41,384 bases of DNA from an uncultured Thermomicrobium sp. (lineage in GTDB: Bacteria > Chloroflexota > Chloroflexia > Thermomicrobiales > Thermomicrobiaceae). A program made the translations under genes and the position numbers. The stretch spans positions 1 through 41,384 of the forward strand of contig CALIMB010000080.1 in assembly GCA_938028665.1 (NCBI GenBank), written 5' to 3'. This document shows positions 10,478-41,384 of the stretch, piece after piece. The notes below the pieces were generated by a model that made no database searches, was not told the DNA's origin, and was given only the letters and a program-made list of their open reading frames with translations. Position 1 is the first letter of the stretch. Each line of letters opens with the position of its first letter.

Positions 10478-10585
10478 TTGCCTGTCCGCCTCGTTGTCCT
10501 GCTTGACTACGGGTTGTACGTGCGCTCCTTGACGCACCCTTCATTGAGTAAAGAACGGCAGACGTTCCCTTGTGATTGAGTCGCT

Positions 10586-11404
10586 TCATAGCGAGAGTTT
10601 GGAACGCCGCAGGCGGTAGTCCCCCGCGCGGATAAAGACAGCGCGGCAGATTGCGCGGTCGCACAAACGCGAACGGATTCGTTCATCCAAATCATCAAGA
10701 TCACGATTGGTGGTGATGACAGTCGGCTTCCGCTGGTTGTAGCGGTAATTCATGATCTGAAAAAGTTTTTCTGCGGCCCAGGGCGTCGTGTGCTCTGTGC
10801 CCAGGTCGTCGAGCACGAGTAATCCTGCGTTGCGCACTTGTTCAAAGCGATTATCGTAACTCTCGGTGCGGTCAGGGGCGAACGTGGCGCGGAGATAGTC
10901 GAGCAGGTCGGGTACGACCGTGAACAACGGGAAGAGGCGCTGGTGACGCAACACATAGTTAGCGATTGCGGCTGCAAGGTGCGTCTTCCCGCATCCATAG
11001 CCTCCCATGAGGAGAAGCCATCCGTCTGGATTGCGGGCATAGTCGAGAGCGAGGCGATAGGCGTCACCAACTCCAGGGACGGTTGGGTCGAAGGTCTCGA
11101 ATGTCCAATCCTCGAGTTGCTCGAGGCCGCTCAGCTCCAGATATTGCCGCAAGAGCTTTGCCTCACGCTCCCGAATCTTGCATTCACACGGAATTATCCG
11201 GCCGAAGTTCGGATGCCCCACTGGCACGTCGAGGCGGAGATAGCCTGCACCCTTGCAAATCGGGCAGACGGCTCCTGCGCCCTGACCGAGCGCGGACCAA
11301 TGAGGTGTGTCATTCGGGGTTGCTGAAGAGCGGGGCATACTTTCCCCGGAGATACTTGTCTGGATCGAGTCGGCGAGCGCGTTGATCTCGCGGATGGGCT
11401 TCAT
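10586..11404 (-). CDS. dnaI: DnaI/DnaC-like replicative helicase loader (AAA+ ATPase)
   Basis: These ATPases load the DnaB hexamer onto DNA. The 272-residue protein has an N-terminal zinc-binding module (C47, C50, C73, C75 in CPIC...CEC), Walker A GGYGCGKT around 134-141, Walker B LLVLDDLGTE near 195-204, and a sensor-type TTNRDLDDLDERIRSRL. ATG 11404 has AAGGA seven bases upstream but overlaps the dnaD-like gene by 95 bases; ATG 11338 (MPRSSATPND) is the alternative, with a poorer ribosome binding site. The neighbouring DnaD-like and DnaB genes strongly support the role. Confidence 0.88.
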   Translation of the reverse strand: MKPIREINALADSIQTSISGESMPRSSATPNDTPHWSALGQGAGAVCPICKGAGYLRLDVPVGHPNFGRIIPCECKIREREAKLLRQYLELSGLEQLEDWTFETFDPTVPGVGDAYRLALDYARNPDGWLLLMGGYGCGKTHLAAAIANYVLRHQRLFPLFTVVPDLLDYLRATFAPDRTESYDNRFEQVRNAGLLVLDDLGTEHTTPWAAEKLFQIMNYRYNQRKPTVITTNRDLDDLDERIRSRLCDRAICRAVFIRAGDYRLRRSKLSL

Positions 11405-35183: not shown

Positions 35184-36398
35184 ATGGCGACCCCAGTGAT
35201 CGTTAGTGCAGTGCGAACGCCGATCGGACGCTTCGGAGGTGCATTGAAAGATGTGCCTGCGTGGCGACTTGGAGCAGTGGTCATCGCCGAGGCGGTGCGG
35301 CGTGCGGCACTCGATCCCTCAGCGGTCGACGAAGTGATTATGGGGAACGTCTTACAGGCGGGGCAGGGAATGAACCCAGCTCGGCGAGCGGCGATGACAG
35401 CTGGCTTGCCTGATGTTGTTCCAGCGATGACCATTAACATGGTCTGTGGCTCCGGGCTTCGCGCAGTCGCAATGGGTGCTCAAGCGATCTCACTAGGTGA
35501 GGCGGAGGTCGTGGTTGCGGGTGGCATGGAGAGTATGTCACAAGCACCGTACCTCCTTACCGGAGCCAGATTCGGTTATCGGCTTGGGCACGGAACACTT
35601 TATGACTCAATGCTCGCTGATGGCTTAACTGATGCCTTTCACGACTGCCACATGGGACTCACCGCGGAGAATATCGCACGGGAGTACGGTATCGGCCGTG
35701 AGGAGCAGGATCGCTTTGCCTTGGAAAGTCAACGGCGAGCTGCTCGCGCGTGGGAGACTGGAGCGTTTACTGACGAAGTGGTTCCGGTTGAGGTAGAAAG
35801 CAAGCAAGGGGCTGATCGGATCGAACGGGATGAACATCTCCGACCAGACACCACGCTTGAGACCCTTGCTCGGTTACGACCAGCATTCGATCCCCAGGGT
35901 ACCGTGACAGCAGGGAATGCATCTGGGATCAATGACGGAGCAGCGGCGCTGGTCGTGATGTCTGAGGAGCGTGCCCGACGGAGTGGTCTTGAGCCACTCG
36001 CCATCATTCGTTCTTGGGCTTGGGCGGGTGTACCTCCTCGCGTGATGGGATTGGGACCAATCCCGGCTCTTCGTCGAGCCCTCGGTCGACTTGATCTCAG
36101 CGTGAGTTCTGTAGATTTGTACGAGATCAACGAGGCATTTGCGGTACAGGTGCTTGCCGTGCAACGAGCACTCGGGATCGATCCAGAGAAGTTGAACATC
36201 CATGGAGGGGCTATTGCCTTAGGTCACCCGATCGGGGCGAGCGGTGCACGAATCCTGGTGACGCTTGTTCATGCGCTTCGTCGGACGGGTGGTCGCATCG
36301 GCGCAGCAGCCCTGTGCATTGGTGGAGGGATGGGGATAGCGATGGTGGTGGAACAGCCGAGTGTCAGGGAAGTTAGGTCCCGGTCTGACGAATGTTGA
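35184..36398 (+). CDS. Acetyl-CoA acetyltransferase (thiolase)
   Basis: This thiolase interconverts two acetyl-CoA and acetoacetyl-CoA, or cleaves longer 3-ketoacyl-CoA. The 404-residue protein has the nucleophile Cys in [23 protein letters not shown], the catalytic His in [17 protein letters not shown], and the C-terminal acid/base Cys in CIGGGMG. ATG 35184 follows AGGTGG; the GTG at 35172 would add four residues. Its last 26 bases overlap the 3' end of recF on the other strand. Following acsA, it may feed ketone-body or polyhydroxyalkanoate chemistry, but no reductase or synthase is in the window. Confidence 0.92.
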
Positions 36399-37596
36399 GC
36401 ATCGACGACTCCAGCACGATGGTTCCGTCGACAAGGCGTGCCAGGGGCAAGGAGTCAAGCGTCGGGTGCTGCAGGATGGACGGCTCGGCGGCGGTGAGCA
36501 GTTTTTGGGCAGGCAACATTGCGAGGGCGGCGAGTAGGCGCTGGCGATGGTCACCATCCAGTTCCGAGAGCGCATCATCCAGGAGGAGAACAGGCCAGTC
36601 GTCGGTGGCGCGAGCGACGGCGGCGATCTCGGCGAGCTTGGTGGCGATGACCGCGAGGCGTTGCAGGCCGCGTGAGCCGACGGCGGCCAGCAGCTCACCG
36701 TCGAGCAACCACTGGAGATCATCGCGATGTGGACCGAAGAGGGTGGTGCCACGCCGCAGTTCGTCCTTCCGCCGCTGTGCCAGCAGCTGCCGATAGCGCA
36801 GGCTGACTGCTGCCTGGGCCTCGGCCAGGTCAAGGTGCGCCAGTTCCCGGGCCAGCGGGTCGGGGAGGGGAATGGTAGAGACGTAGCGCGTGGTCAAACT
36901 GAGTGGTCGAGCCGTGAGGCGGGCAAAGCTTTCGCTGAGATCGTATGACCACCCCAGCAGGAAGCGAAGGCGGGCGACGAGCAGATAGGTTCCGTAGGTG
37001 ACCAGTTGGTCGTCCCAGAACGCGAGCTGTTCCTCGATGGACTGCTGCTGCTGGTTGCTGAGGTGCTTGAGGAGGCTGTTGCGGTGCTCCAAGATCCGAG
37101 TGTAGTGTGCCAAGGCGCGGAGGTACGTGGAGTCGATCGTCGCCAGCACCAGGTCGAGGAAGCGTCGGCGTCCCTGAGGCCCACCAGTCACCAGTTCGAT
37201 ATCTTGAGGCGAGAAGAGGACAACGCGCAGTGTGCCGATGAACTGCATGGCTCGCACCGGTCTGCCGTCGCGACGGTAGCGCTTACTGACCTGGGCGGTG
37301 GTTGGGTCTACCAAGAGTGAAATCTCCAGGGTATGGTGACCGGTGCGAGTCTCCACGTGGCCGGCGATGCGTGCAGAGGGCGGAAGACCGAGGTCTTGAC
37401 CACTGGCGCGGTGAATCAGGGTACGCTCAGCGGGAGCTCGAAACGACTTGGTGGTAGCCAACAGAGCGAGTGCCTCAACGATACTGGTTTTTCCCGAGCC
37501 GTTGGTGCCCACGAGGCGGAGGCCAGCTGGAACCCAGGCGAGTTCCAGCTGGCGGAAGCAGCGAAACTGGTGCAGCTCTAGCCTGGTTATCTGCAT
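36373..37596 (-). CDS. recF: DNA replication and repair protein RecF
   Basis: RecF is an SMC-like ATPase that directs RecA loading at gapped DNA. The 407-residue protein starts [14 protein letters not shown] and has Walker [10 protein letters not shown], the signature region [21 protein letters not shown], and Walker [17 protein letters not shown] 37596 has AAGGT about eight bases upstream; a GTG two codons earlier is possible. It lies 73 bases after dnaN in the same direction. The C-terminal end overlaps the thiolase gene. Confidence 0.95.
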
Positions 37597-37669
37597 TCCC
37601 ACAAACCTTGCCGGAGGTAGTTAGGGTGAGCGGCGCCGTGCGGTGGCGTGTGCGGGAGCGCTGCCGCTG

Positions 37670-38812
37670 TCATACTGTGCCGAGCACCATGGGCATAACC
37701 ACATGGACAAACGACTCATCGCCGACTGGCCGGAAGACTCCGGCGGCGTTTGGCGAGGTCATCTCGATCATCATCTCTGTGGCTTTGGTGACCGAGAGGA
37801 CATCGGTGAGATAGCGTCCATTGAAGGCGATGGTTGCTTCTGGGCCGTCGACGCGGGCCGGAAGCAGGTCCTGGGTCTCGCCGGCATCGGCTGCCTGGGC
37901 GGAGACGACCAGCGATCCGGGATCGAGATCGGAGACTCCCGGGAGAAACTGGAGCTTAACCACCTCGTTGTTTGCCTGAGCGAAAATCTTGGCTCGTCGT
38001 GCTGCCGCCAGGAAAGCCTCCCGATCGACGGTGACGCGCGTGCGCCACTGTGTGGGGATAATCTGACGGAAATCGGGGAAGGTGCCGTCGATAAGGCGGG
38101 ACAGGAACTCGAGACGACCGCTCCTGGCGAGCAGTTGACTGCGGTGTGGAGTCACTAGCAGGTGAACTGACTCGTCTCCGTCTGGCAGAAGACGGGCAAG
38201 CTCGCCGAGCGCCTTGGCCGGGACGATGATAGCCAGAGCAGTGGCTGCCGGCTGAGGCAGCACCAGCGTTCGGACAGAGAGACGGAAGCCGTCGGCAGCA
38301 GCCAAAGTGAGCTCTTGCCCCTGAAATTCCAGCAAAACGCCGGCGAGCACAGGACGGCTGTCGTCGGTTGCTGCGGCAAAAACGACGTGAGCGATGGCCT
38401 CGCGGAACAGTTCGGTGCTGACTGTAGCTGTCGGTGGTTGCTCGCCAATGCGTGCAAGGGTAGGGAAGTCTTCTGCGGGAATGCCAGGAAAGCGAGCCTT
38501 GGCCGTGGCACAAGTGACCCGAAGATCTGTACTGCCCGGAGAGGCTGTGAGGGTGACCTCTTGACGAGGCAGGCTGGCGATAAAGTCAGTGAAGAGATCG
38601 GCACGGACGCTGAGTTGCCCCGATTCCTCGACGTCAGCAGGGAGCGAGACACTGAGGGCAATCTCCAGATTAGTTGCAGTCAGCCGCAGGGCTCCTGCCT
38701 CGGCGACGAGGAGGACATTGCTCAAAACGGGTAGTGTCGAACGCCGCGCCACAGCACGACTGACCTGATGCAGCGCTCGCTCCAGCTCGGCCTGCTGACA
38801 CCGGACCTGCAC
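37670..38812 (-). CDS. dnaN: DNA polymerase III beta subunit (sliding clamp)
   Basis: The clamp tethers the replicative polymerase to DNA. The 380-residue protein has the three-domain clamp organisation, with LPVLSNVLLVAEAGALRLTA, PVLAGVLLEFQGQELTLAAA and the C-terminal VVMPMVLGTV. GTG 38812 is chosen because GGGGGAGGAG lies six bases upstream and the predicted transcript start near 38848 excludes the longer frame from 38917. dnaN-recF is a common gene pair, but dnaA and gyrB are not adjacent here. Confidence 0.95.
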   Translation of the reverse strand: MQVRCQQAELERALHQVSRAVARRSTLPVLSNVLLVAEAGALRLTATNLEIALSVSLPADVEESGQLSVRADLFTDFIASLPRQEVTLTASPGSTDLRVTCATAKARFPGIPAEDFPTLARIGEQPPTATVSTELFREAIAHVVFAAATDDSRPVLAGVLLEFQGQELTLAAADGFRLSVRTLVLPQPAATALAIIVPAKALGELARLLPDGDESVHLLVTPHRSQLLARSGRLEFLSRLIDGTFPDFRQIIPTQWRTRVTVDREAFLAAARRAKIFAQANNEVVKLQFLPGVSDLDPGSLVVSAQAADAGETQDLLPARVDGPEATIAFNGRYLTDVLSVTKATEMMIEMTSPNAAGVFRPVGDESFVHVVMPMVLGTV

Positions 38813-38854
38813 AGCCAGCTCCTCCCCCGGGTGTCCGTACACCAGCCGGAAAGT

Positions 38855-38863
38855 ATTATACCA
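38855..38863 (-). promoter_or_regulatory. Extended -10 promoter for dnaN-recF
   Basis: On the minus strand TGGTATAAT is an extended -10 with consensus TATAAT. The transcript would start near 38848, about 36 bases before the dnaN GTG. Confidence 0.7.
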
Positions 38864-39115
38864 GGGTAACGCAAGCCTCGAAATAGCGGGGGACAGGATT
38901 AGTTTCTCTTGTCTCATTGGTAGGTTTCCGCATTGTCAAGAGCCTTCTGCTGTGCTCGCAAGGCATGTGGCTGACCAGAGACGATGCAGTGAAGCTTTCA
39001 ACGTGGCAAAGGGGGATCGTTCCTGAACTGGACCACTTGTCCTCTTCTGATCCAGAGGCCTGAGGGGCACAGGCGGTGGGTTGTGTGCAAGGCGACGTTG
39101 TGCTGGGCAAAGACT
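38864..39115. other. Divergent intergenic region, no gene seen
   Basis: This stretch separates the dnaN promoter from the promoter of the Rad52-like gene. It was inspected for DnaA boxes (TTATCCACA-like) because of its position beside dnaN, and none was found. No strong hairpin or gene is visible. Confidence 0.5.
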
Positions 39116-39144
39116 TTGACACTGGCGTGTCGCAGAGGTACTAT
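39116..39144 (+). promoter_or_regulatory. Consensus sigma-70 promoter for the Rad52-like gene
   Basis: Consensus TTGACA (39116-39121), a 17-base spacer and TACTAT (39139-39144) give a transcript start near 39151. That leaves about 30 bases before ATG 39183. It is the best -35/-10 pair in the window. Confidence 0.8.
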
Positions 39145-39182
39145 TAGCACAGATGTTCGTGTTTTCCGGAAAGGATCGGATG

Positions 39183-39779
39183 ATGAGCAGTGAACGGACC
39201 GAGCGACAAGGATTTGATCCCTCGAAGTTCTTGACGAAAGTCAACGGCCATGACTACTTAGAGGTCAAGTGGCGACTGCTCTGGTTCCGTACCGATCATC
39301 CCGACGGAGACATTGAGACGGAGCTTGTGGAGCATCGTGACGGCGTTGCCGTGTTCCGAGCTCGGATCAAGGTGCCTGGGGGCGGTTCGGCCACTGGTTG
39401 GGGCAGCGAATCTGTCGAGGATTTTGCAGATTATCTCGAAAAGGCTGAGACCAAGGCCCTCGGTCGAGCTCTGGCGGCGCTGGGGTATGGAACGCAGTTC
39501 TGTCCGGACTTCGAGTTTGGTGCTGCGGAGCAGCGTGTGGTGGATTCGCCGGTGGATCCGGCGTGCTTGTCTGGACGCCGAACACTCACAGGGCGAGTGA
39601 CTCCTCGCCAACTTGAATATTTACGCGATATGGCGCGGCGTCTGGGGATGACCGAAGAAGAACTTGAGGCGCAGGCGCGGGAGCAGTTTGGAACGGCACT
39701 CGAGGAGCTAGCGCGGCAGGATGCCTCGGCGTTGATCGAGACGCTGCGGCAGCGCCGGAGTGCTCATGAAGCGGCCTAA
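39183..39779 (+). CDS. Putative Rad52/ERF-like single-strand annealing protein
   Basis: The 198-residue protein begins with a beta-rich domain (KVNGHDYLEVKWRLLWFR), then the motif DFADYLEKAETKALGRALAALGYG. This resembles the KAxTxALxRALxxxG helix of Rad52/ERF-type annealing proteins common in phages. After a variable linker, a small C-terminal helical domain (RVTPRQLEYLRDMARRLGMT) resembles tails found on such phage proteins. Family assignment is by recalled motif only. ATG 39183 follows AAAGGA and is preferred to ATG 39180; ATG 39153 would be nearly leaderless. It stands alone between a strong promoter and a terminator, with no phage genes nearby. Confidence 0.6.
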   Translation: MSSERTERQGFDPSKFLTKVNGHDYLEVKWRLLWFRTDHPDGDIETELVEHRDGVAVFRARIKVPGGGSATGWGSESVEDFADYLEKAETKALGRALAALGYGTQFCPDFEFGAAEQRVVDSPVDPACLSGRRTLTGRVTPRQLEYLRDMARRLGMTEEELEAQAREQFGTALEELARQDASALIETLRQRRSAHEAA

Positions 39780-39826
39780 GTAACTGTGCAGACTACTTGC
39801 GCACTTCCCCGGCTCGTGCTTTGTTA

Positions 39827-39853
39827 CCCTGGGCGTAACAGCCCAGGGTTTTT
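39827..39853 (+). terminator. Intrinsic terminator after the Rad52-like gene
   Basis: An 8-bp perfect stem, CCCTGGGC with GCCCAGGG, has a 6-base loop and five T residues. It isolates the Rad52-like gene as a single-gene transcription unit. Confidence 0.9.
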
Positions 39854-39880
39854 CGTTTTGAGCGGGGGATCGTTGGTGAG

Positions 39881-41062
39881 ATGTATGACCTTGCGTCCAT
39901 TCGTGCTCAACTACCGGCATTAGCATCGTGCACATACCTAAATACAGGGACGCTTGGACTCATGGCGGAGCCGGTACTCGCGCGCTACCGCGAGGCGCTG
40001 GATCGGGCTCATTGTTTCGGTTATCTAATTCTTGACGAGTTTCGAGAGGCGACCGAGCGCGTTCGCTTGTCGCTGGCTGAACTTCTTGGGGTCCGAAGCG
40101 AAGAGCTAGCCTTCACAGGGAACACGACGGACGGTCTTGCGCTGGTGCTGGCCAGTTTTCCCTTTCGGGCTGGTGACCGCATCTTAACCAGCGATCAGGA
40201 GCATCCGGCTGTCCTCCTCCCACTTACCCTGGCGTGTCGGCGTCGCAATGTTGTTGTCGAGCGTTTTGGGGTGAGTACCGAAAAGGAGGAAACGCAAGAG
40301 GCATTCTCCGCGGCGCTGTACCGGACTCGTCCGCGTCTTGTCGTCGTCAGTCATGTTTCCTGTGAGACCGGTGTACGGTTGCCGATCGAGGAGATAACAC
40401 GGATGGCACATGCCGAAGGGGCGTGCGTCTTGCTCGATACGGCTCAGTCGATTGGGCAGTTTCCGGTGCATCTAGCAGATTTGGGTGTCGACTTGGCGGC
40501 GGGGAATGGACACAAATGGCTCCACGGGCCGCAGGGGACGGGGTTCATTTATATCAGGCAAGGATGTCTCGACCTTCTCGAGCCGCCTTTGGTCGGTGAC
40601 GGTGCGGTGGTTCCTCCATTCGATCGTCATGCGTTCCGCTTTGATGGTACGGATTGGTGTTTCCGGGGTGATGCTCGTCGGTTCGAATACGGAACCCGTG
40701 ACTGGGCGCGGCTCATCGGGTTGGGCGCTGCGATTGAGTATCTCGCGCGTCTTGGTTGGGAGGCAATTGCACAGCACCAAGCACACCTGGTCACGACGCT
40801 CTGGGAGCGGCTCGAGAATCATCCTTCAATTCGATGGTACTCGCCGACCAATTACCAGGATGGATCTGGGCTTGTGACTCTCGGACTTGCTGGCTGGAGT
40901 GGTGAGCGCTTGAGTGGCGTGCTGTGGGAAGACTTTCGCATTGTGCAAAGACGGGTTCAGGTGCCCGATGGAGTACGGGTGTCCTGTGCCTACTTCACTT
41001 CGGAAGAGGATCTGGACAAGCTGGTGAGGGCGCTTGAGAAACTGTCGAGGAGGGCATGCTGA
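39881..41062 (+). CDS. Class V aminotransferase (cysteine desulfurase-like, PLP-dependent)
   Basis: This is a fold-type I PLP enzyme. The 393-residue protein has YLNTGTLGLMAEPV at the N-terminus, the cofactor region GNTTDGLALVLASF, the PLP-binding Asp in VLLDTAQSIGQFPV, and the Schiff-base Lys212 in AGNGHKWLHGPQGTGF. It resembles the isopenicillin N epimerase/kynureninase-like branch more than IscS or SufS. No Fe-S assembly genes are adjacent, so the substrate is unknown. Its stop codon lies immediately beside the queA stop on the opposite strand. Confidence 0.85.
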   Translation: MYDLASIRAQLPALASCTYLNTGTLGLMAEPVLARYREALDRAHCFGYLILDEFREATERVRLSLAELLGVRSEELAFTGNTTDGLALVLASFPFRAGDRILTSDQEHPAVLLPLTLACRRRNVVVERFGVSTEKEETQEAFSAALYRTRPRLVVVSHVSCETGVRLPIEEITRMAHAEGACVLLDTAQSIGQFPVHLADLGVDLAAGNGHKWLHGPQGTGFIYIRQGCLDLLEPPLVGDGAVVPPFDRHAFRFDGTDWCFRGDARRFEYGTRDWARLIGLGAAIEYLARLGWEAIAQHQAHLVTTLWERLENHPSIRWYSPTNYQDGSGLVTLGLAGWSGERLSGVLWEDFRIVQRRVQVPDGVRVSCAYFTSEEDLDKLVRALEKLSRRAC

Positions 41063-41077
41063 TCACAGGATCAGCAT
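41056..41077. terminator. Hairpin built from the convergent stop codons
   Basis: ATGCTGATC (41056-41064) pairs perfectly with GATCAGCAT (41069-41077) around the loop ACAG. The structure contains the stop codons of both the aminotransferase (TGA 41060-41062) and queA (41063-41065, minus strand). No long T-run is present on either side, so terminator activity is inferred. Confidence 0.5.
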
Positions 41078-41384
41078 TGCGTCGCCGAAGCTGTAGAACC
41101 GGTAACGCTGACGAACGGCCTCGCGGTAAGCCTCCAGGATGAAGTCACGGCCAGCAAAGCTTGCCACGAGGAGGATCAGTGTGCTTCGGGGCAAATGGAA
41201 ATTCGTAATGAGGGCGTTGACGACACGCCACTGGTAACCGGGGTAGATGTACAAGTCTGTCCAGCCGGTCAGCTCCTCGATGGCTCCCCGGTCGAGCGCT
41301 GCCGCGATCGATTCCAACGTGCGAGCGGCGGTTGTGCCGACAGCAACTACACGGCCACCGGTGCGGCGTGTTTCTTGAATGCGT
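41063..41384 (-). CDS. queA: S-adenosylmethionine:tRNA ribosyltransferase-isomerase (partial, C-terminal)
   Basis: QueA makes epoxyqueuosine in tRNA. About 106 C-terminal residues are present and the reading frame runs off the window at 41384. The visible motifs are [55 protein letters not shown] and the C-terminal FGDAMLIL, all characteristic of QueA. The 5' part lies outside the window, so the internal TTG at 41317 is not a real start. Confidence 0.95.

Follow-up and report, generated by a model that had tools for sequence, protein, structure and literature searches.

A candidate LexA-regulated annealing protein of the Rad52 superfamily encoded on the chromosome of Thermomicrobium

Introduction

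Single-strand annealing proteins have mostly been studied as recombination tools of phages, and accounts of the bacterial SOS response usually centre on RecA, excision repair and error-prone polymerases. The stretch of DNA analysed here (the window; 41,384 nucleotides from an uncultured Thermomicrobium sp. of the order Thermomicrobiales, phylum Chloroflexota) raises the question of what a protein resembling such phage tools is doing as the product of a solitary gene beside dnaN and recF, and under whose control it stands. An earlier note on this DNA had described the product as a Rad52/ERF-like protein that might be a domesticated annealing protein with a housekeeping repair role. Our analysis points to a single-strand annealing protein of the Rad52 superfamily, encoded on the chromosome, repressed by LexA and induced by DNA damage, an explanation that we regard as probable.

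Results

The transcription unit and its neighbours

The open reading frame at 39153–39779 on the forward strand is present as given in the window's list of ORFs, with its stop at 39779. The ATG at 39153 is an improbable start, since it lies inside the operator and the orthologue alignment puts the starts at the ATG at 39180 or 39183. The gene and its surroundings comprise the following features:

39116..39144, + strand: sigma-70 type promoter, with -35 TTGACA at 39116–39121, a 17-nt spacer and -10 TACTAT at 39139–39144
39146..39159, no strand assigned: putative LexA/SOS-type operator AGCAC-AGAT-GTTCG, 7/8 of GAAC-N4-GTTC, directly after the -10 and over the expected transcription start
39168..39175, + strand: probable ribosome-binding site GGAAAGGA, 4 nt before the ATG at 39180, proposed from the sequence
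39180 (or 39183)..39779, + strand: coding sequence of the annealase-like protein, about 199 aa, from the ORF list and the orthologue starts
39826..39859, + strand: intrinsic terminator with a 9-bp stem, a 6-nt loop and a T-rich tail, from a site search and folding
37670..38917, - strand: dnaN, divergent neighbour and synteny marker, by Pfam; the true start may be internal
36373..37602, - strand: recF, adjoining dnaN, synteny marker, by Pfam and the ORF list

The gene that the earlier note had placed within 39116–39853 is therefore real as a coding sequence running to 39779 from 39180 or 39183, and the motif to which it had drawn attention is present, reading EKAETKALGRALAALGYGT. The TTGACA-17-TACTAT promoter is likewise there; it is unremarkable when taken by itself, with one sigma-70-like site found in 38400–41384 against 0.7 expected by shuffling, which alone is not significant, and strongly conserved among orthologues. 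In 13 aligned orthologue promoters the TTG of the -35 and the TA...T of the -10 are invariant, the -35 and most -10 positions as a whole are invariant or nearly so, and the spacer is variable. Expressed as information per column, most positions of the -35, the -10 and the LexA-type box reach 1.6–2 bits and the spacer is near-random. Terminator-like sites number three against 2.4 expected, and the proposed terminator holds up by its stability, the stem at 39826–39849 with its T-run folding at -19.9 kcal/mol (z -3.9; none of 200 shuffles equally stable).

Pfam scans of three neighbours identified dnaN and recF, which flank the gene on one side, and a class-V aminotransferase that flanks it on the other; the ORF beyond the aminotransferase appears, on reading of the ORF list, to be queA-like. 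No phage gene was found among these three scanned neighbours or in the queA-like ORF, in agreement with the dnaN-recF neighbourhood free of phage genes that had been described, and no exonuclease gene was found among the three neighbours by Pfam. The LexA-type box at 39146–39159 had been overlooked in the earlier note.

A sequence family outside the curated annealase profiles

In the family alignment (A2, 63 rows) the residues R32, K88, E90, R96, L98 and G102 are invariant. The profile searches that the earlier note had proposed as a check came out negative: the window protein matched none of the Pfam families Rad52_Rad22, ERF and RecT at E values up to 10, no family of Pfam or NCBIfam lay above cut-off, and none of the 63 members of A2 matched a Pfam annealase family at E values up to 0.01. 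Because no curated Pfam annealase profile matches, the proteins are treated here as a separate sequence family. Two phage protein families, PHROG 27776 (E 4.1e-19) and PHROG 11717 (E 1.1e-16), match the window protein and all 63 members, and for both the function is listed as unknown.

Several other matches look like chance, namely the sub-cut-off matches of the window protein to Imm72 (0.11), PqqD (0.24) and slr1353 (0.0078) and that of its C-terminal part to the RecT-like PHROG 2780 (0.069, below cut-off). Five Pfam families, none of them an annealase family, matched one or two of the 63 members each at 3e-4 to 7e-3.

A search of the PDB by sequence profile returned no matching chain. Comparison with hhalign gave probabilities of 0.7% and 0.2% against one Sak and one Sak3 sequence, and no match over the whole protein against one Red-beta sequence. 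The signal from an ungapped motif scan was weak, its score being reached by 230 (Sak), 3889 (Erf) and 785 (Sak3) of 5000 shuffles. As the hhalign comparisons, each against one sequence, were null and the motif scan was weak, the claim of an annealing fold rests on structure and not on the motif.

Predicted structure

An AlphaFold model built on A2 (mean pLDDT 81, pTM 0.52) predicts two domains joined by a low-confidence linker:

39210..39515, + strand: predicted N-terminal Rad52-superfamily annealing domain, residues ~11–112, with the helix EKAETKALGRALAALGYG; fold match to Sak 80alpha, RAD52 and Mgm101
39585..39770, + strand: predicted C-terminal helical domain, residues 136–197, Red-beta CTD-like; fold match to 8tg7 and 6m9k

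The modelled N-domain runs in the order short hairpin, helix, three strands and long helix, in keeping with the beta-hairpin, beta-sheet and bridging helix expected of the Rad52 superfamily. With Foldseek against the PDB the best match of the window model was Sak of phage 80alpha (E 2.9e-4). In VIA-align the N-domain aligned best with human RAD52 (Z 9.6, 103 residues, rmsd 4.3), followed by Sak 8pq8 (Z 8.7, 97 residues, rmsd 3.5) and yeast Mgm101 (Z 7.9); the margin of these scores, at Z 8–10, is moderate because dsRBD-like rows reach Z 7.9. The C-domain aligned with the Red-beta CTD in complex with an SSB peptide (8tg7) at Z 9.8 and rmsd 1.7 over 62 residues, and with the Red-beta CTD bound to lambda exonuclease (6m9k) at Z 9.2. 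When a viral homologue, L048, was modelled as well (pLDDT 84), the values were similar (Sak 5.8e-5, RAD52 Z 9.7, Red-beta CTD Z 9.9).

Among predicted viral structures most top rows carried no function in their name; rank 2 was an exodeoxyribonuclease-8/PDDEXK-like protein of 405 aa, probably a fusion, and the other named matches were an essential recombination function protein, SAK3 and Rad52/59/22 proteins.

The models of the two homologues, that of the window and L048, thus support an annealing-protein fold of the Rad52 superfamily, and the similarity to annealing proteins that structure prediction had been expected to reveal was found with Sak, RAD52 and Mgm101. The designation "Rad52/ERF-like" stands for its first half, as Rad52/Sak-like by fold, and falls for its Erf-like half. 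The "phage-type C-terminal helical domain" is borne out in both models by the match to the Red-beta CTD; by predicted fold it would be a Red-beta-type CTD, the domain which in Red-beta binds the SSB tail and lambda exonuclease.

The C-terminal domain in other proteins

The family profile A1 finds a match in 64 of 301 genomes of the phylum and 60 of 115 genomes of the class, and many of these align only to the C-domain. Six proteins with C-domain matches, taken from 20 additional stretches, were scanned against Pfam. One is a RecT protein (L234; PF03837, 2.2e-33) and another a Rad52_Rad22 protein (L246; PF04098, 4.4e-29), both ending in the C-domain of the window family, which argues that the Red-beta-like C-domain accompanies known annealing domains; two more (L236, L243) have no Pfam match and share the motif AETRAKARALRDAVN. 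No LexA-type box was found near the chosen starts of L234 and L246, and L234 has an 8/8 site about 200 nt upstream.

These associations bear on whether the protein anneals strands at all. It could be a damage-induced protein that binds single-stranded 3' ends and protects them against nuclease attack without annealing, in the manner of Deinococcus DdrA, which in the available excerpts of two papers (PMC515370, PMC8533742) is Rad52-related, damage-induced, protective of 3' ends and devoid of annealing in the authors' assays; the regulation logic of the window gene, set out below, resembles that of DdrA. Such a role is nevertheless unlikely, since the Red-beta-like C-domain is in lambda part of an annealase with SSB and exonuclease partners and since proteins of the phylum with the window-family C-domain carry RecT and Rad52 annealing domains.

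The C-domain was also observed in other settings. In one member of the order (L248, G022:C12) only a 131-aa C-domain protein with a short N-part matched; a LexA-type box at 8/8 lies 43 nt upstream of it, and the arrangement looks as though the annealing domain had disappeared or been exchanged. Two loci of Chloroflexia (L215 and L249, the latter with the C-domain duplicated) appear on reading to carry two Red-beta-like C-domains behind a different short N-domain. A stand-alone small ORF at about 10542–10784 of the viral contig L058, separate from the annealase of that contig, resembles the C-domain by eye.

A common LexA-type box at the gene, lexA and recA

The box was scored as matches out of the eight positions of GAAC-N4-GTTC, with a threshold of at least 7/8 within 110 nt upstream. 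It was found in all 30 orthologues tested from the order, including that of the window, with 23 of the 30 at 8/8; these orthologues were the best-scoring 30 of the 42 genomes with a match spanning both domains, and the box of L027 is 8/8 when an internal start is used. A -35 of the TTGAC type lies within 45 nt upstream of the box in 29 of the 30, TTGGGG having been accepted as the -35 of L006 after it was seen in that species. At L011 the box is degenerate (GAAATGATGTTC) and a TTGAC -35 is missing. In the set of genome contigs, largely from the same species, the box was present at 15 of 16 loci, the exception being an Armatimonadetes locus (L046), while among viral homologues it was present in 7 of 61, two of the 61 lacking upstream sequence. 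Fisher's test of the order against the viral loci gave p 1e-17, a value to be read in view of related rows that are not independent. Among 30 loci of the phylum 17 had the box: the four from Thermomicrobium and, of the remaining 26, 13, where about 1 would be expected.

Shuffles of the same upstream regions produced a box in about 3–4%. As a further control, 92 other gene starts in the same 15 loci of the order yielded three boxes at 7/8 and three at 8/8, and two of the latter belong to the divergent dnaN that shares the same region. In the order the box preceded lexA in each of 12 genomes, always at 8/8, and recA in each of 11 (six at 8/8, five at 7/8).

The promoter therefore carries a LexA-type site with the motif seen at lexA and recA, and the gene is a candidate member of the SOS regulon. 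A role in repair is suggested because the box is common to the gene, lexA and recA; of the "housekeeping repair role" previously assigned to the protein, repair is retained, and "housekeeping" is better read as damage-inducible.

In the genus of the window the box has a GCAC half-site (7/8) in all six annealase copies found (window 39146–39159 and L002–L006), and most other genera have GAAC. As the box is only 7/8 there, LexA repression may be weaker or altered in this genus. Counted across the genome G000, the pattern AGMACN4GTTC gave 50 sites where the reversed control gave 62, and hence no enrichment, so that a pattern count is unable to define the regulon and only conservation and the comparison with lexA and recA can do so. 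Chromosomal copies without a box are the paralogue type (9 of 9), homologues of the phylum outside the genus (13 of 26) and a second type described below (7 of 21). Several window-type homologues of the phylum have TAGAACA...TTTC sites, a departure from the motif that also occurs in the recA boxes of some relatives.

It could be supposed that another repressor with a GAAC-N4-GTTC-like site acts here, or that the gene is constitutive, its inverted repeat being otherwise used, and encodes a general replication-linked annealase near dnaN. The divergent arrangement with dnaN-recF and the genus-specific half-site, which weakens the LexA match, are in keeping with this, but the occurrence of the same box before every lexA and recA examined makes it quite improbable. 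In the available part of one study (PMC3323433), moreover, the established LexA site described for B. subtilis, M. tuberculosis and Gram-positive bacteria as a whole is GAAC-N4-GTTC. The same excerpt places Chloroflexi (Sphaerobacteraceae) among groups with multiple chromosomes and states that some groups lack a defined LexA motif and/or genomes. Control by LexA is thus the reading carried forward.

A second annealase-like type with the same pattern

Homology between the AETRAKARALRDAVN type (A5) and the window family extends over the full length (hhalign probability 97.2, E 3.9e-11, 174 columns). Of 301 genomes of the phylum, 32 gave a match to the A5 profile, in part through the C-domain of window-type genes. 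No Pfam match was found in the two members scanned and no NCBIfam match in the eight scanned. Among genome loci of this type, of which 24 were read and 21 parsed, a box of at least 7/8 within 130 nt was present in 14 of 21 (eight at 8/8; 0.77 expected), while among 31 viral loci, of which 21 were parsed, it was present in none of 21 (0.61 expected). The second type in the phylum thus shows the same contrast between genome and viral loci as the window type. Its loci in Chloroflexota are L235–L245, L213, L214 and L254–L277, and many members have the Red-beta-like C-domain.

A resident gene of a phage-associated family

A match to the family, the paralogue type included, was found in 54 of 61 relatives and in 27 of the 28 of good quality; it spans both domains in 42 of the 61, and two more match in two pieces. 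The paralogue type (L199–L207, Thermomicrobiales), which is the only copy in some genomes, has a different, FWxWAR-like C-terminal region and no LexA-type box, with a best score of 6/8 in nine loci. A divergent dnaN lies beside the gene in 11 of 15 loci of the order, accompanied by recF in ten (the L044 contig ends inside dnaN), and the syntenic loci include Thermomicrobium, Sphaerobacter and other Thermomicrobiales. In the remaining four, which belong to a single genus group, the gene lies elsewhere and not by dnaN, and no dnaN synteny was found at L046, outside the order. The survey of neighbourhoods that the earlier note had recommended accordingly shows orthologues that are not confined to prophages. 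Nor does the surrounding of the window gene resemble a prophage recombination module, given that dnaN adjoins the gene in 11 of 15 loci and that the three scanned neighbours are not phage genes. Comparison with L031 (dN 0.052, dS 0.75) and L032 (dN 0.054, dS 0.73) shows purifying selection on the gene, with dN/dS of about 0.07; dS is saturated against L033.

No viral relatives were found with a single-sequence search, and 61 loci were found with a profile search; homologues were also found in 13 phage records. In Thermus phage P23-45 the homologue is clustered with a DnaB-type helicase, a Holliday resolvase and a primase, and in L048 it directly precedes an SSB-like ORF (the identities of unannotated viral ORFs being assigned by reading). 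In an unrooted tree of 107 columns, built after 3 of 126 candidate rows had been set aside (one ahead of the alignment, two because their coverage was short), the rows of the order cluster and four viral rows (L048, L049, L050, L059) are nested among them, with 56 of 116 inner branches open. The direction from phage to host implied by "domesticated" is no more than a possibility, given an unrooted tree of weak support in which these viral rows sit among host rows.

The family is thus phage-associated, but the branch of the window is a resident chromosomal gene. That it should be a relic of a lost prophage's recombination module or a recent acquisition from a phage, kept by chance and without a repair role, is highly improbable, since the many phage homologues, adjoining SSB-like and replication genes, a DnaB-type helicase and a Holliday resolvase, are outweighed by the spread and synteny of the gene in the order, its purifying selection and a conserved box that most viral copies lack. 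An origin from a plasmid, considered separately, was rejected, with one weak plasmid match.

Proposed mode of action

In the undamaged cell, LexA bound to the box at 39146–39159 would block RNA polymerase. Upon damage, RecA on single-stranded DNA would provoke the self-cleavage of LexA, and the single gene would be transcribed as far as its own terminator. The protein would load on resected, SSB-coated single-stranded DNA, its N-domain forming rings or arcs that hold the strand, while the Red-beta-like C-domain would dock on the acidic tail of SSB and displace it, after which the N-domain could pair complementary strands. The SSB of the window's genome ends in DDDPWSDQVPF, and a DVPF or DQVPF end is present in nine of nine complete SSBs, a count that leaves out a tenth, the fragment L228. 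For Sak of phage 80alpha, efficient annealing of SSB-coated strands is described as needing both its CTD and the SSB tail, in the accessible part of the report (PMC11846896).

The outcome would be a RecA-independent branch of double-strand-break repair beside RecF and RecO. The replacement of RecO by the annealase was considered and rejected, with recO found in 58 of 61 relatives, in all 28 of good quality and in the genome of the window. With RecF in the window and RecO present, the annealase would add to the RecFOR pathway and not replace it.

Discussion

Taken further, the observations would fit an SOS response of Chloroflexota with a dedicated annealase slot, in which the LexA-controlled host gene and the Red-beta-like, SSB-docking C-domain are kept and the annealing domain varies by lineage (the window type, the AETRAKARALRDAVN type and possibly RecT and Rad52). 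We put this forward tentatively, as an idea whose chances fall slightly short of even. If true, it would amount to a host-run, RecA-independent strand-annealing branch of repair assembled from phage-type parts.

Neither the annealing fold nor the LexA box is new in itself. In the open-access literature, among the titles and abstract beginnings of the matches listed, there was no LexA-controlled chromosomal annealase and no report of the family in Thermomicrobia, nor was there among the matches listed any LexA-boxed annealase conserved throughout an order and recurring with a second type of annealing domain. A host annealase of this kind, conserved in the order and joined by a second type in the phylum, would extend the SOS response by a branch of strand annealing. 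The findings also suggest a function for the PHROG families whose role is given as unknown, and for a family of proteins that has no match in Pfam.

With human RAD52 and yeast Mgm101 the window protein has the N-domain fold in common, though the likeness is remote, without a PDB match by sequence profile, and the C-terminal part of those proteins is different. P23p48 of Thermus phage P23-45, entered as "ssDNA binding protein" in PQ158664, belongs to the same sequence family at 33–39% identity, but is a phage gene in a replication/recombination cluster, whereas the window gene is chromosomal. Lambda Red-beta shares the fold of the C-terminal domain (8tg7, 6m9k) and differs in that a profile match over the whole protein is absent and that no exonuclease lies among the scanned neighbours of the window gene. 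Sak of phage 80alpha (8pq8, 8qe9), the best Foldseek match, shares the two-domain plan and, in the excerpt available (PMC11846896), anneals with SSB through its CTD; it is however a phage gene adjoining SSB, and profile-level similarity to the one Sak sequence compared was absent (0.7%).

The closest parallel, by analogy and as far as the available excerpts go, appears to be DdrA (DR0423) and DdrB of Deinococcus under DdrO, which are likewise chromosomal, damage-induced and ssDNA-binding, DdrA being Rad52-related (PMC515370, PMC8533742, PMC1978522). DdrA, compared here by description only, has an HHH motif in the excerpt of one of these papers (PMC1978522), whereas the window protein has a Red-beta-CTD-like C-domain; and control in Deinococcus is by DdrO and the RDRM, whereas that of the window gene looks to be of the LexA type (SOS). 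The annealase of Thermomicrobium would thus parallel the DdrO-controlled DdrA and DdrB under a different repressor.
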